DNA of 25,655 nt from a virus: the IMG/VR virus record IMGVR_UViG_3300032134_000017, positions 1 through 25,655 of that record. The stretch is one strand, 5' to 3'. Position numbers and translations under genes: made by a program. The notes below the pieces were generated by a model. The model was not told the DNA's origin. It saw only the letters and a list, made by a program, of their open reading frames with translations, and ran no database searches. This document shows, one piece after another, positions 17,825 through 24,591 of this stretch; position 1 is the stretch's first letter, and each line of letters starts with the position of its first letter.

Positions 17825-19666
17825 TTATGTCCCTATACTAGTAGCTCCCCCAATAGGGGATTTAACAGCTTCATCTGCTGAAACTTCCGCTGCTTCTCTA
17901 ATTCTTTTCATTTCCTCAAGGGTCTCTTCAGCAACGGTATCTCTTCCGACTCCCAAGATACCTTCAATACTTCGTCCTAACATATTCGCTGTTTCATCTA
18001 AAAATTCAGGAGATGTTTTAATTTCTTTTTCAGTATTTACCGAAGTTTTTTTTGTGTGTTCTTCAATTTGTTGGGTAAGACCAAACATCGCCCTATCGCC
18101 TTTTCTCGTTTTCTCGAAGGCACCCATAAGATCCGCTAACTGTTGTTCTTGTGTCTTTTTCTTACCCTTATCCTTATCCTTTGTGACCGCAGCAGCATGA
18201 GCTTCTATATCGGACTGGGAATTGACTAACGCTCTCCCCCAATTTCCAACGAAACCAGGAACAAGCTTATATGAACCCAACTCAATTAACATATGTCCCA
18301 TGGCTAGAATTACTTTTTTATAGGCACTATTAACAGCTTCAATAAGAGGATCCATAAAGCCAAATTTATCATTTAACAGTTTAATTATAAGAATAATTGC
18401 ACCAACAGCAGCAATTAAAGGCCAGAACGGAGCAGCAGCGGCTATAATACCTATTGTAAAACTAGCAAGACCGAGAATAGGCCCAATTAGGGCAATAGCA
18501 AAACCAGCTAAGGCTTTAGCAGTAACCCAGACAAGTTTCGCACCAAGCTTGATCAAGTGGGGTATGATGACTATTGTAATTATTTCTCCAAATTTTGTCC
18601 ACAATTCTTTTGCTTTTTCTACTACTCCTGATAATCCTCCAAGCCATATATAAAGTTCCAACGCTTTTATAATCACAAATGTAAGAGCTTGTTTTAAGAC
18701 CACCCCTATAACGGTAGCAACATCCAGAATGATGGGATAGAAAGTTATAAATGCTTGTTGCAATGGAAGAAGAATTTCAGCTTTGATTACAGAAAGTTGA
18801 TTTCCAAAATCAGCAGCTTGTTCGCCCTCTTTAGCTACTCTCTCTCCAAATGCGTCTTGAACAGCGGTGAGTTGGATAGCTGACTCACCAAAAATCTCAC
18901 TAGCAACTCCAATTTGGAAGAATCCTTCACTAGCATCCCCTACCACCGACTCAAATGTACCAGCACCTTTTTGTATAGCATCTTTAAGAATGCTTTGAGC
19001 TTCTTCGGCACTCTTAGCAGCAGATAACTGCTCTCTCACTCCCTCCATCCCTAACATCGTAAGCTTCTCATAACCCTCCATGCTAGTGTCCATGATCATA
19101 CTCATAACACTTTGCATGGGGCCTTTCATGGATGGCCCTAATTCAGCAGTTAACGAAGCAAAAGCTTGAGTAACCTCAGCCCCCATACCAGCTAATTTTT
19201 GAGCAGGGAAGCTCTTTTCTAAAGCACTCATAGCGTCAACCAAATGATCTGTACTAACCATCCATTCATCGCCTATTTGTACAAAGTTTTTAGCTAATGC
19301 ATTAGTTGCCTCTCTAGAAACCCCTAATTGCGACTCCATTTTAGCAAATGCCATCGCGGTTTTCTTAGATTCTGTCCCTGTTAATCTTTGTTGGTTAACT
19401 AAGTGTGCAAGACCAGCCGTATTACCTTGCATACCAACCTCTAACCCAGCAATAGAAGCAGTAAATCTTTCACTAATATCCCCCCGCAAACCCTGCATAG
19501 TGGGAGTAAGTTCTTGATTAGTGTGCTCTAAAGAGGTTCCCAAAGCTAAAGAAGCTTTTTGTGCATTTTCACCAAATTGCATAGTTTCCCTGAGTGTATC
19601 TTTCAGAGCATCTACAGCAGTAATAACACCACCAAGAGCAAGTTCTAGTCCAGCACCAGCAGGCAT
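17825..19666 (-). CDS. Tape measure protein
   Basis: A 613-residue protein rich in Ala and helices. It starts GAGLELALGGVITAVDALKD, continues with long amphipathic helices to about residue 300, then has a dense block of hydrophobic segments at about 305-435 (for example FITFYPIILDVATVIGVVL and FWPLIAAVGAIILIIKLL), and ends in a charged helical tail with a KDKDKGKKK stretch. This pattern (helical rod plus membrane-active centre) is that of tape measure proteins, which set tail length and help DNA cross the inner membrane. At about 0.15 nm per residue it predicts a tail near 90 nm, close to T4 (gp29, 590 residues). It starts 2 bases after the upstream stop with AAGGAAA in front. The usual chaperone pair is not directly upstream; the gp26-like candidate lies about 4 kb away, beyond the primase cluster. 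Confidence 0.88.
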   Translation of the reverse strand: MPAGAGLELALGGVITAVDALKDTLRETMQFGENAQKASLALGTSLEHTNQELTPTMQGLRGDISERFTASIAGLEVGMQGNTAGLAHLVNQQRLTGTESKKTAMAFAKMESQLGVSREATNALAKNFVQIGDEWMVSTDHLVDAMSALEKSFPAQKLAGMGAEVTQAFASLTAELGPSMKGPMQSVMSMIMDTSMEGYEKLTMLGMEGVREQLSAAKSAEEAQSILKDAIQKGAGTFESVVGDASEGFFQIGVASEIFGESAIQLTAVQDAFGERVAKEGEQAADFGNQLSVIKAEILLPLQQAFITFYPIILDVATVIGVVLKQALTFVIIKALELYIWLGGLSGVVEKAKELWTKFGEIITIVIIPHLIKLGAKLVWVTAKALAGFAIALIGPILGLASFTIGIIAAAAPFWPLIAAVGAIILIIKLLNDKFGFMDPLIEAVNSAYKKVILAMGHMLIELGSYKLVPGFVGNWGRALVNSQSDIEAHAAAVTKDKDKGKKKTQEQQLADLMGAFEKTRKGDRAMFGLTQQIEEHTKKTSVNTEKEIKTSPEFLDETANMLGRSIEGILGVGRDTVAEETLEEMKRIREAAEVSADEAVKSPIGGATSIGT

Positions 19667-20071: not shown

Positions 20072-20371
20072 ATGAATAATAATCTCGATGTAGAAATAAT
20101 TGATTTTCTTGATTTAATAAATGAAACACTTAGTTACTCATTTGTAGAAAAATGGAGACATAAGTATTCTGAAAAATTTATAAAGCACTTTCAACTAAAA
20201 GTTTTAGATTCTATGAACAAGCAGAAGCCTATCAAGCTGGAGATGCTCTATAATTATCTTACTAAGAAGTGTAAATACTCACCAGAGCAAGTAAATAACT
20301 TCTTTATCTCTATAGAGATAGATATCTATCATCCCTTTATATACGGGGCTTGGCCTAAGATTTCTTCTTAG
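20072..20371 (+). CDS. 99-residue helical protein of unknown function
   Basis: The only frame that fills the 317 bases between the leftward tail operon and the leftward nuclease gene, and it does so exactly, which supports its being real. The protein is acidic at the N-terminus (LDVEIIDFLDLINETL), Lys-rich in the middle and mostly helical, with Leu/Ile/Phe spacing of a small globular domain. It ends with IDIYHPFIYGAW. No motif was recognised. No Shine-Dalgarno precedes the ATG. Its 3' end overlaps the nuclease gene on the other strand by 17 bases. A rightward transcript from 20038-20071 would carry it, then run antisense through the nuclease gene and reach the primase gene. A small regulator or replication accessory protein is possible, but this is a guess from the neighbours only. 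Confidence 0.6.
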   Translation: MNNNLDVEIIDFLDLINETLSYSFVEKWRHKYSEKFIKHFQLKVLDSMNKQKPIKLEMLYNYLTKKCKYSPEQVNNFFISIEIDIYHPFIYGAWPKISS

Positions 20372-21125
20372 CTTTTAGTTCATCTATCTTTTTGCTTACC
20401 TCATGCATCGTACAGAACTCTGGGCAAGCGGTCTTGTAAGCACACCAGTTACAAAACTCATTTCTACTAGGTTTCATCTCGTCTTTCTTCCTTTTACGGA
20501 TCTTCCAGACCTCATCAACTATCTTTCTTATATGTGCGTTGATTTGAGGGACGGAGTACTGGACATGAACAAAGTTATTGGTTAGGGGATAGTAGTGTGC
20601 AGCCACTATTTGGGAGAAGGGGATCTTATAGAGCTTACTGATAGCATAAACATATCCCTTCAATTGAGTGTCCTGATAAAGCTCTACTTTACTTTTTTCT
20701 CTTTTTGAAGTCTTGTAGTCGATTACCAAGTATCCTCCATCTTTACCCTTTATAACACGGTCAATAACCCCATTAAGCGTAATGTCCTCTTTAACGGGAA
20801 CTTCGAAGACTAACTCAGTAGCCACCGTTTCTTCAAGTTTTGGGTTGAACTCAAGAAAATTGTTAATACACTTTAAATCTTTGCCCGTGTACTTCTTTGA
20901 TACCTTGTATGAACCCCTTACCTCCTCAGCAATCAACACTAGCTCTTCCTGAGTTTTTGCGTTCACTCCATCTTCAAGTATCTTGTGGATATATGACCCA
21001 AAGTGAAGAGCCTCCGTGTTGGACTCCCTTGGTTCAGGAAGCCGATCAACATAACGATAACGATATTTTAACTGACACTGTTTATAAGTCTGAAACTTAG
21101 ATTCGGAAATTGTTTTTATGTACAT
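20355..21125 (-). CDS. PD-(D/E)XK nuclease with Fe-S cluster, Cas4/RecB-like
   Basis: A 256-residue protein with the RecB-family order of motifs: Cys17 in TYKQCQLKYRYRY, GxxxH at Gly43-His47, Glu104, Asp122 in GVIDRVI, Asp136-x-Lys138 in LVIDYKTSK, and QxxxY at Gln154-Tyr158. The C-terminus carries Cys225, Cys228 and Cys234 (FCNWCAYKTAC), which with Cys17 form the 4Fe-4S site seen in Cas4 and AddB. These residues predict a metal-dependent DNA exonuclease, acting in recombination, end processing or host DNA breakdown. No cas1, cas2 or CRISPR repeat is near, so a CRISPR role is not supported. The start is well fixed: GAGG lies 7 bases before the ATG and the family begins with this Tyr/Ser/Cys segment. 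The start overlaps the primase start by 8 bases and the end overlaps the 99-residue gene by 17. Confidence 0.9.
   Translation of the reverse strand: MYIKTISESKFQTYKQCQLKYRYRYVDRLPEPRESNTEALHFGSYIHKILEDGVNAKTQEELVLIAEEVRGSYKVSKKYTGKDLKCINNFLEFNPKLEETVATELVFEVPVKEDITLNGVIDRVIKGKDGGYLVIDYKTSKREKSKVELYQDTQLKGYVYAISKLYKIPFSQIVAAHYYPLTNNFVHVQYSVPQINAHIRKIVDEVWKIRKRKKDEMKPSRNEFCNWCAYKTACPEFCTMHEVSKKIDELKAKKKS
21118..21125. other. Palindromic shared start site ATGTACAT of two divergent genes
   Basis: The octamer equals its own reverse complement. Reading rightward, 21118-21120 is the primase ATG; reading leftward, 21125-21123 is the nuclease ATG. Both proteins therefore begin Met-Tyr-Ile. Each gene's ribosome binding region and any near promoter must lie inside the other gene's coding sequence. 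Confidence 0.85.
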
Positions 21126-22110
21126 AATATCACCTCAGTTTATTAGAGACTATCTTACTCAAAACTTCAAGAATAATGGGAAACTATCGGCTAGTGGGCG
21201 CGAGTTCATCATGGAGTCTCTATTCGTCAATCATGACTGGAAGAAGCACATGAGCGTCAATGTAGATAGTGGTTTGTGGCAGTGTTTCAAGACAGGAAGA
21301 TCAGGTAACTTCACCAGACTATATGCAGAGGTAGAAGGTATTCCGTACTTTAGGGCCCAAAGAGATCTTATAATCAAGAACTTTGAATTCCTTGGTGAGG
21401 AGGTTCCCGAATTAGATAGACCAACGAAGGAGCTAGAGCTAGACACAAGTAAGTTAATCCCTGTCGATATTAACTCAGGAATGTCGGAGGATAAGAAAAT
21501 TCTTGATGCGTGGAATTTCTTATTCGGTCGAAAACTATTCGACATGGAGAACATAGAAGTAGGCCCCTTTTATCTGTGTACTGAGGGGAAGTTCACAGAC
21601 CGTATTATTATCCCATTCAGGGCAGAAGGAACTGTATACTACTTTCAAGCCCGCGCCCTTTACGATCAATCCCCGAAGTATTTAAATCCATCAACCGAGA
21701 TTGCCCCTAAGCCGTCCGACATCCTGTATCCGTATGATGAAAATTCTGACCACTTAGTGGTGTGTGAGGGGCCTCTAGATGCCCGCGCACTACAACTTCA
21801 AGGCGTTAATGCTACTGCCACTATTGGAAGCTCAATCAGCCCTAGACAGGCTGATATACTGTCTACCTTTGAAGGAAAGATTATCCTAGGATACGACAAC
21901 GATGAGGCGGGACAACGAGGTATTGAGAAGTTTGACAGGATCAGAAAAGAAATGAGGATGGAAGGCTTTGAAATATGCCCTCCACCCTCAGGATTTAAAG
22001 ATTGGAATGAAGCTCACATCGCTGATGAAAACTTATTTCAATGGGTTATGGAAAAAACTGTTGCGTATGATTTCGAGTATCAGATTAGTACTCAACTAGG
22101 TTCTGATTAA
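21118..22110 (+). CDS. DNA primase, toprim family, T4 gp61-like
   Basis: A 330-residue protein close in length to T4 gp61 (342). The toprim catalytic residues are visible: Glu217 and Asp221 in VVCEGPLDARALQ, and Asp260 and Asp262 in ILGYDNDEAGQRG, followed by KDWNEA at about 294-299 as in DnaG-type primases. It should make RNA primers for lagging-strand synthesis together with a gp41-type helicase, which is not in this window. The N-terminal segment HMSVNVDSGLWQCFKTGRSG has the shape of the primase zinc domain but only one Cys (Cys56), so a standard zinc ribbon seems lost. The start at 21118 agrees with the YIISPQFIRDYL beginning expected for the family; only a weak GGAA precedes it. The 3' end overlaps a leftward structural gene by 26 bases. 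Confidence 0.9.
   Translation: MYIISPQFIRDYLTQNFKNNGKLSASGREFIMESLFVNHDWKKHMSVNVDSGLWQCFKTGRSGNFTRLYAEVEGIPYFRAQRDLIIKNFEFLGEEVPELDRPTKELELDTSKLIPVDINSGMSEDKKILDAWNFLFGRKLFDMENIEVGPFYLCTEGKFTDRIIIPFRAEGTVYYFQARALYDQSPKYLNPSTEIAPKPSDILYPYDENSDHLVVCEGPLDARALQLQGVNATATIGSSISPRQADILSTFEGKIILGYDNDEAGQRGIEKFDRIRKEMRMEGFEICPPPSGFKDWNEAHIADENLFQWVMEKTVAYDFEYQISTQLGSD
21133..21136 (-). promoter_or_regulatory. Ribosome binding site of the nuclease gene, inside the primase gene
   Basis: On the minus strand GAGG is followed by TGATATT and then the ATG at 21125. It is a good Shine-Dalgarno at normal spacing, yet on the plus strand these bases are codons 6-7 of the primase. It fixes the nuclease start and supports the divergent overlap as real. 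Confidence 0.7.
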
Positions 22111-22719: not shown

Positions 22720-23694
22720 TCAAGTAATAGTAAAATAGAACGGGGGAGTAACAAAGTTCTGAGTTAAGAAAGAGTACTTAGCCACAATGAAATATGTTCC
22801 CACCCCAATCGCGTCCGCATCTGCAAATGTATTATAATTATAAAGGATCGTGTTGTCTGTCGTAACTGAAGCAGGTTCATCTTCCAAAACCGTAGTCCAA
22901 GCTTCTTGATTAACACTATCATCATTAACTTTTTTGATAGTAACTGAAGCACCCGTAATTGGATAATCTTTCAAGATATTCTTAACTTCTTCTGAGAGAG
23001 TCCTGTTTTGAACCGTAAGATCAGTCGTAATCTTCATATCAATCTTTTCACCAAAACGCAACTTCTTGTTTATCAATCTATTACGAGTAGTAACTAGGAG
23101 CGGTTCTGTGATAGTAGTGAAGTTATCATTATACAGGCTGAAGTTATTGATAAAGATTTGATACTCAGAGTCCTCAAAGAGTTTTACAGTCCAAACATCA
23201 ATATAGTCCTGAACAGAAGAGGCAGTGTTGGTTACGGTGACTCCTGCACTGTATGGGTAACGTATAGTATAGCCACCTGATAAATCTAGACTACCATCTA
23301 GAACAGCAATATAGTCTCCTGTACCAACTCTAAAAATACCACTAGCTTGGTTCCCTGGTACATATGCAGGGAACCAAGCCAAATCCCCAAGGTTATTGGA
23401 GGTAACTCTACCATCTATACCATCATGAGGATCCTCGCGCGTACCCAGGGGATTTCCAGAAATCCCAAAGCTCATGGCAATGACCGAGGTAGCATCACTA
23501 CTAAGTAGTCCGTCATCACCTTCCACAATAGAATCAGGAGAAATATTTGCTGCCTTAGTAAAGATAGTACATGCACTTACATCATAAGGATCAATAAACG
23601 CTCCATTATTAATAAATAGCGTTCGAATAGCTACTTTCCCACCCACACTTGGGCGATTATGTCTATCAACTAGAGTTACTCCGTTTAATTGCAT
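22720..23694 (-). CDS. Beta-rich virion protein of unknown function
   Basis: A 324-residue protein starting MQLNGVTLVDRHNRP. It is rich in beta-branched residues, Asp and Asn, with segments such as GDYIAVLDGSLDLSGGYTIR and a C-terminal IGVGTYFIVAKYSF then PPFYFTIT, which look like immunoglobulin-like or other beta-sandwich domains. There is no signal peptide, membrane segment or catalytic motif that I can see. Its first 29 bases overlap the end of the -1 frame of the gp26-like gene, and a GGAGAGAG stretch inside that frame serves as its ribosome binding site. Tight linkage to the gp26-like chaperone and to a structural gene suggests a tail or neck component. This is by position only. Confidence 0.65.
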   Translation of the reverse strand: MQLNGVTLVDRHNRPSVGGKVAIRTLFINNGAFIDPYDVSACTIFTKAANISPDSIVEGDDGLLSSDATSVIAMSFGISGNPLGTREDPHDGIDGRVTSNNLGDLAWFPAYVPGNQASGIFRVGTGDYIAVLDGSLDLSGGYTIRYPYSAGVTVTNTASSVQDYIDVWTVKLFEDSEYQIFINNFSLYNDNFTTITEPLLVTTRNRLINKKLRFGEKIDMKITTDLTVQNRTLSEEVKNILKDYPITGASVTIKKVNDDSVNQEAWTTVLEDEPASVTTDNTILYNYNTFADADAIGVGTYFIVAKYSFLTQNFVTPPFYFTIT

Positions 23695-23860
23695 CTTCTT
23701 CTCTCTCCAAGTCTTCCTTTAATAATTTAAGAAAAATTGTCCTCTCGGTACGAGACATAGTTTTTACATCAGAATAACTGAAATGTGCTCGTTTCACAAG
23801 TATATAGGCTTCTAGAAGAAGAGAATCAACATCAATTACTTCATCTAGCTCACATCGAAA
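23666..23860 (-). CDS. -1 frame extension of the gp26-like protein (64 codons)
   Basis: If ribosomes slip back one base at the AAATTTT heptamer after codon 244 (Phe), they read 64 further codons, FRCELDEVIDVDSLLLEAYI and onward through VKRAHFSYSDVKTMSRTERT to a charged helix ending in KRSNSS, then stop at 23666-23668. The whole product would be 308 residues. The extension is helical and charged, as expected for the T domain of a G-T chaperone that binds the tape measure. It has no well-placed start of its own: the first ATG (23758) and the GTG at 23797 lack a ribosome binding site and would lose most of the frame. It fills what would otherwise be a 150-base hole, unusual in this dense genome. 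By position it could correspond to T4 gp51, which follows gp26. Confidence 0.6.
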   Translation of the reverse strand, partial: FRCELDEVIDVDSLLLEAYILVKRAHFSYSDVKTMSRTERTIFLKLLKEDLEREEDAIKRSNSS

Positions 23861-24591
23861 AAATTTGCATCAATTGGTAAGTCTACGACCGATACCCCTC
23901 CACAGTCCGTACAGGCAAATTTAATCTTAGTGTCAACACCATAATCGGATTTTATAGCATTTAAAAGGGTTCTAACGTCCTTAAGAGGCAGCTTGTCAAT
24001 AACAGCAGAAATAATAGATTTATCTGTATGTCCGTCGATCTCTACAACAAATCTCCATAGTTGATCTAAAGCAGTAGTAGGATCTGCAAAAATCTTTTCA
24101 TCTCTAACTCTGGGTTGTCTAACTTTGATGTCTTTGGCTAACTGTGGAAGGGTTATAGTAATGGGATCTTCAAAATCATCAGGAACAGGGTTCACATTAA
24201 GCTGAGAAAGCTTGACTGTAGTTGGATTCTCAGCTTTACATTCTTGACAAATAAGTAGGGTATTATAATCATCCCCGTATGAAATTTCTCTTAATTTCAT
24301 AATAAGAAAGAGTTTATCCATAGGAAGAAGCTCTAAAATCTTCACATTAGTTACACACCTTTGAAGAACAAGATTTACAGGATCTTGTTCTTTCTTAGCA
24401 CTAACAATATTCTTTTCATCCTCAAAGGTCATCGGCCTAATGGTCACAGGCATATCGGGATCTTCTAATTCATAAACTCTACACTCGGAAGGTAAGTCTA
24501 CCTCTACCGCTGTATTCGTAGGGAGTTCTTTTAAAAGATCATCAATAATATTTTGTTTTGCTGGGTCAACAGCGTAGCTCTTTTCTGCCAT
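23845..24591 (-). CDS. Baseplate hub assembly/tail chaperone protein, T4 gp26-like (0-frame product)
   Basis: A 248-residue acidic protein resembling the T4_baseplate (gp26) family. It has two CxxC pairs far apart, Cys115/Cys118 (LLICQECKAENP) and Cys227/Cys230 (FACTDCGGVSV), forming a probable zinc ribbon around a helical insert, preceded by VTIRPMTFEDEKNI at about 49-62. In T4, gp26 and the product of the next gene, gp51, act in hub assembly. AGGAG lies 8 bases before the ATG. The stop comes five codons after a slippery A AAT TTT TTC run, and the -1 frame stays open for 64 more codons, so this protein is probably the short form of a frameshift pair like lambda G/GT. The family assignment is by pattern memory, not alignment. 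Confidence 0.8.
   Translation of the reverse strand: MAEKSYAVDPAKQNIIDDLLKELPTNTAVEVDLPSECRVYELEDPDMPVTIRPMTFEDEKNIVSAKKEQDPVNLVLQRCVTNVKILELLPMDKLFLIMKLREISYGDDYNTLLICQECKAENPTTVKLSQLNVNPVPDDFEDPITITLPQLAKDIKVRQPRVRDEKIFADPTTALDQLWRFVVEIDGHTDKSIISAVIDKLPLKDVRTLLNAIKSDYGVDTKIKFACTDCGGVSVVDLPIDANFFDVS
23857..23866 (-). promoter_or_regulatory. Programmed -1 ribosomal frameshift site (A AAT TTT TTC)
   Basis: In the zero frame the codons are GCA AAT TTT TTC GAT, so A AAT TTT (23866-23860) fits the X XXY YYZ slippery rule, and T TTT TTC (23863-23857) fits it again one codon later. The zero-frame stop TAG follows at 23847-23845. Downstream the minus strand contains CTTCTAGAAG, a 10-base palindrome that could help form a stimulating stem. 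Confidence 0.65.

Follow-up and report, generated by a model that had tools for sequence, protein, structure and literature searches.

The gp26-type gene on the minus strand of the viral DNA analysed here (IMG/VR record IMGVR_UViG_3300032134_000017, 25,655 nt, hereafter the window) very probably encodes a two-form tail assembly chaperone (TAC) of the T4 gp26/gp51 family, with the longer form made by a −1 frameshift. We infer the slipping itself, the slip rate and the chaperone function. The elements of the locus, with motifs written 5′ to 3′ on the coding strand, were as follows.

23845..24591, minus strand: gp26-type ORF of 248 aa, the short form (TAC-N), with a putative lambda G-like role
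23845..23847, minus strand: zero-frame stop TAG, maintained via the CTA leucine codon of the −1 frame
23857..23863, minus strand: slippery heptamer T TTT TTC, in zero-frame phase, three sense codons 5′ of the stop
23860..23866, minus strand: overlapping upstream heptamer A AAT TTT, present in phase, without conservation
23666..23857, minus strand: −1 frame extension of 63 aa plus stop, predicted to complete the long form (TAC-NC, GT-like)
22720..23694, minus strand: next gene, 324 aa, with no assigned function; the 29 bases at its start lie within the extension, and it is found downstream across the clade

The zero frame ends with GCA AAT TTT TTC GAT GTG AGC TAG, and 150 bases lie between the gp26-type ORF and the start of the next gene at 23694. 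From stop to stop, the −1 frame is open for 67 codons (23869-23666), and a slip on T TTT TTC leaves 63 sense codons and yields a fusion of 308 aa. The first start codons of the −1 frame past the zero-frame stop, GTG at +50 and ATG at +89, are both deep within the conserved part. These observations reproduced the description given in the initial annotation, namely a −1 frame that is open across the slip site, fills a 150-base hole, lacks a credible start of its own and produces a 308-residue fusion. The 324-aa product of the next gene had no significant PHROG match and no Pfam family match.

The 248-aa protein matched PF12322 with 62.9 bits against a cut-off of 24.5, covering profile positions 6-218 of 219, and matched phrog_150 (baseplate hub) with an E-value of 3.3e-21; its AlphaFold model had a mean pLDDT of 86.8. 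PF12322 was also matched by both T4 proteins (215.6 bits for gp26 and 177.5 bits for gp51), and we therefore regard these as paralogues, gp51 being a gp26 paralogue with about 48 extra C-terminal residues. The −1 ORF of the window, for its part, matched phrog_634 ('baseplate hub assembly catalyst', gp51) with an E-value of 3.8e-4. When extension alignments were compared with gp51 C-termini by hhalign, the E-value was 2e-9 for the pooled alignment and 3.6e-5 for the window clade alone, with reversed controls at 0.23 or worse. A fused profile aligned with gp51 over nearly its full length (E-values of 1.6e-16 for Aer31 and 8e-13 for T4), and reversed decoys gave 2 or worse. Comparison of a single gp51 sequence with alignment A2 was weak, and is superseded by these profile comparisons. 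Searching 1.84 million six-frame residues from the collected loci, into which some contigs entered twice, the extension profile gave 199 matches at E < 1e-3, comprising 194 −1 ORFs that overlapped the end of a gp26-type gene and 5 in-frame gp51 C-termini, with no match elsewhere at that threshold. Between E-values of 1e-3 and 1, it found only the remaining gp51s and the +1 extension of phage GXN1.

Judged by these profiles, the −1 extension is homologous to the gp51 C-terminus. It corresponds to the last ~48 residues, the remainder of gp51 being the gp26 paralogue, which rules out the extension as a whole gp51. The argument from adjacency made in the initial annotation had to be given up, as T4 genes 26 and 51, though adjacent, lie on opposite strands. 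The wider proposal, in which T4 makes with 26 and 51 the short/long chaperone pair known as G/GT in lambda, is supported on grounds that the initial annotation did not have, the gp26/gp51 paralogy and the common extension. The window gene has PF12322, the C-terminal extension and a short plus a long form in common with T4 gp26/gp51, but T4 has two divergently transcribed paralogous genes where the window has a single gene with a −1 frameshift.

Models of gp26 and gp51 had no fold match among solved structures, and the two proteins had no sequence match in the PDB and no match to a Pfam TAC family. Known lambda-type chaperone families are very divergent among themselves. The model used in place of the 308-residue fusion was that of an in-frame gp51 from L208, a T4-like contig; the C-terminal extension of this gp51 was predicted to form three helices with modest confidence (blocks of pLDDT 61-73). 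The gp51 gene appeared split near codon 120 in another T4-like contig (L216:2501-3255), and Klebsiella phage KPV15 is represented by two half-length proteins in the structure library, comparable to that split gene. A DNA search of phage records gave no match.

Lambda G attaches along the tape measure, and GT, which is rare, brings the tube protein via its extension (PMC5009743). The window gene would share with lambda G/GT this two-form logic and a −1 frameshift of low frequency close to where the short form ends (PMC5009743), but its slippery heptamer is different, sequence or fold similarity was not detectable, and its gp26-type protein has CxxC pairs and a longer N-terminal domain compared with lambda G. 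By analogy with lambda G/GT, we propose that the majority of ribosomes would stop at TAG and release the 248-residue short form, which would coat the tape measure protein. A minority would move back by one base at T TTT TTC, where the two tRNA-Phe would re-pair on TTT TTT, and would produce the 308-residue long form, whose helical C-terminal extension would recruit the tail tube subunit; the proportion of long to short form would be low and fixed. In T4, gene 26 would supply the short form and its paralogue, gene 51, the long form.

The order of tail tube, gp26-type gene and tape measure was directly seen in phages SP-15 and LIS04. A candidate for the tape measure was present in the window as well.

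17825..19666, minus strand: probable tape measure protein, 613 aa, five genes downstream of the gp26-type gene

This protein had no family match in Pfam or PHROG, and is probably the tape measure in view of a long hydrophobic stretch (about residues 303-435) and its position in the tail cluster. The conserved gene order in the clade begins with gp26 and its extension, the 324-aa gene and sometimes a 189-aa gene, and continues with a primase on the other strand, an exonuclease, a 122-aa gene and the probable tape measure. The DnaG-like primase (plus strand) and the PD-(D/E)XK nuclease (minus strand) overlap inside the tail cluster (window 20355-22110), an arrangement conserved in the clade.

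T4 gp26 and gp51 are listed as hub assembly chaperones, and gp51 is needed for hub assembly yet absent from the particle (PMC3004832). T4 genetics puts genes 26 and 51 in hub assembly (PMC3004832), and database names of the gp26-type family also say baseplate hub, so that the product could instead be a hub component or a hub-specific assembly factor, as annotated for T4, with a long form whose target is the baseplate hub rather than the tape measure and tube. We consider this unlikely, since the short/long design matches chaperone pairs, as does the placement of the gene between those for tube and tape measure in SP-15 and LIS04. Moreover, the hub and tape-measure readings overlap, because gp29, the tape measure of T4, also belongs to the hub.

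As for the frameshift that would produce the chaperone pair, the layout by itself is only suggestive, because in-phase slippery heptamers are common in the AT-rich window: 49 in-phase X XXY YYZ heptamers (Y = A or T) were counted in 7,467 codons, about one per 150 codons. A slippery heptamer within the last seven codons is by itself only mildly unusual, and the case for the frameshift therefore rests on conservation. Two scans of IMG/VR gave 28 and then 361 relatives, and the best 80 of the 361, with 48-90% identity, were kept. Alignment of these relatives, which the initial annotation had called for, showed T TTT TTC or T TTT TTT together with the −1 extension in every locus that had the gene end, down to 48% identity, where T TTT TTT characterized the most distant group. 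The extension reached 52-60 codons beyond the zero-frame stop. In 23 of 23 distinct close relatives T TTT TTC was invariant while neighbouring third positions varied; the frequency expected for T TTT TTC from N-F-F at the genes' own codon usage is about 10%. The leucine codon of the overlapping −1 frame was CTA in all 23, against a usage of 20%, and this maintains TAG, which indicates that the zero-frame stop is selected too. Past the stop, median dN/dS was 0.13 in the −1 frame, compared to 0.87 and 1.85 in the other frames, indicating that purifying selection on the extension is confined to the −1 frame. None of the 23 had a stop in 153 nt of the −1 frame, and the other frames contained up to nine.

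Both slippery phases noticed at first, A AAT TTT and T TTT TTC, are indeed in phase, but only T TTT TTC is conserved. A AAT TTT was ruled out as the slip site, as relatives have AGT TTT, TCT TTT or GGT TTT in its place and read, for example, GCG AGT TTT TTC and GCG TCT TTT TTC. With a conserved slip site, a conserved stop and coding selection in the −1 frame, the programmed −1 frameshift originally suggested for this gp26-like protein is strongly supported.

The same junctions bear on whether the −1 ORF could be a small gene of its own on which ribosomes re-initiate past the gp26 stop, in which case a frameshift is unneeded. Nearly all cyanophage-type loci have an ATG 5 nt past the stop, and databases annotate their −1 ORF as a separate 'baseplate hub assembly catalyst'; in Cygsa01 and Vibrio K474, an ATG overlaps or abuts the stop and the canonical heptamer is missing. 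However, the window clade, Syn19, Ah1, Atu_ph07 and Paride have no ATG, GTG or TTG near the junction that would yield the conserved part, and their conserved protein begins at the slip site. T TTT TTC would also be unnecessary under re-initiation, which we regard as very improbable for this gene. The slip site is a T run, and the long form might be made by transcriptional slippage, but this is hardly credible given that 6-7 T is short for polymerase slippage and that the run keeps strictly to the X XXY YYZ phase, where Z is C or T.

Ribosomal slipping on T TTT TTC, the reading that we prefer, would possibly be stimulated by a downstream stem or pseudoknot.

23812..23848, minus strand: possible stimulatory stem, 23848-23839 pairing with 23821-23812, 8 nt past the heptamer; weak evidence

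This stem has 10 bp in several relatives and a U.U mismatch in the window. Pair counts over the relatives gave 88.8% of cells paired and no covariation beyond shuffles, and RNAalifold on the downstream region predicted almost nothing (−0.32 kcal/mol). The sequence CTTCTTCTAGAAGCCTATATA at window 23821-23801, about 40 nt past the slip site, was strongly conserved in divergent relatives, including at third codon positions, and is a candidate RNA element. Cyanophage-type loci such as L119 carry a nearly invariant GGAGGG/GAGGGT motif about 9 nt 5′ of T TTT TTC, resembling the Shine-Dalgarno-like stimulator of dnaX; the window does not have this motif.

Beyond the window clade, all 39 distinct loci compared (38 of cyanophage type and one of IC12 type) had the T TTT TTC and −1 design at the end of gp26. 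The design was also found in Synechococcus Syn19, Aeromonas Ah1, Vibrio V07, Pseudomonas Milchi, Rhizobium IC12, Agrobacterium Atu_ph07 and Pseudomonas Paride, a range that takes in jumbo phages of Agrobacterium and Pseudomonas, and the slip site of the Pelagibacter phage HTVC008M was T TTT TTT. Kyanoviridae gp26 and short 'gp51' showed the T TTT TTC end and a gp51-related −1 extension as in the window, although Kyanoviridae often have an ATG just past the stop and a GGAGGG-like motif, neither of which is in the window. The Ackermannviridae (maane), Cygsa01 and Vibrio K474 kept the −1 ORF without a canonical heptamer. An extension in the +1 frame followed the gp26-type gene in Bacillus phage SP-15, Listeria LIS04, Streptococcus GXN1 and Mel-JY01.

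L031:6551-6874: +1 extension of SP-15
L030:6569-6877: +1 extension of LIS04
L032:6644-7012: +1 extension of GXN1
L114:5695-5931: +1 extension of Mel-JY01

SP-15, LIS04 and GXN1 are like the window in having a gp26-type gene and an overlapping extension ahead of the tape measure, but they differ from it in the +1 frame and make no conserved use of T TTT TTC. The motif CC CGA TTY just 5′ of the stop was common to these three phages. Extensions of the SP-15 type may be reached by +1 or −2 shifting.

T4, Aeromonas 31 and RB43 had one long and one short gene in place of the frameshift. Judged from their gene ends, cyanophages, Ah1, PA5oct-like phages and Agrobacterium jumbo phages are predicted frameshifters, whereas T4 uses a short and a long gene. 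In the tree, Straboviridae gp26 and gp51 formed one clade (99/96) beside the frameshifting Ah1, V07 and Milchi, with weakly supported deep forks around it. We lean towards a history in which the family switched repeatedly in T4-related phages, with −1 shifting on U UUU UUC/U as the probable ancestral state, present from cyanophages to jumbo phages, +1 shifting in SP-15-like phages, a possible stop-restart in some and a duplication in the T-even phages.

The T4 two-gene explanation is already published in outline: Vladimirov, Gautam and Davidson (Virology 2022), as represented in PMC10885494 and PMC12846349, described a TAC in T4-like phages that is carried as a short gene plus a longer fused one, and slip signals of the poly-T kind in the short-form genes of such phages. 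The TAC of phage Adele (Vandenendeviridae/Andersonviridae) has a poly-T −1 frameshift and a −1 frame uninterrupted family-wide, like the window gene (PMC12846349), but it belongs to another phage family and has the motif GTTTTT. The present analysis adds an uncultured clade, the breadth across the family, the evidence of selection and a +1-frame version in phages of the SP-15 type; of these, the +1 variant and the family-wide picture have the best claim to being new.

Previous comparisons noted that cyanophage gp51 lacks the first ~200 residues yet resembles the T4 C-terminus, and that gp51 is missing only in Aeh1 (PMC3037559). Both remarks are accounted for by the distribution of frameshifting and two-gene arrangements, with Ah1 standing in for Aeh1. 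Long-tailed phages 'except T4' have been said to conserve the frameshift in tail assembly genes (PMC5009743). Repeated switching, if true, would explain the truncated-looking cyanophage gp51, the apparent absence of gp51 in Aeh1-type phages, and T4 as the named exception to this rule. In T4-like phages and cyanophages, many genes annotated separately as 'gp26' and a short 'gp51' probably form a single frameshifted gene, of which each is one half. Through one protein family, the data tie T4 to the tail-frameshift rule and offer a concrete evolutionary route from frameshift to gene duplication.
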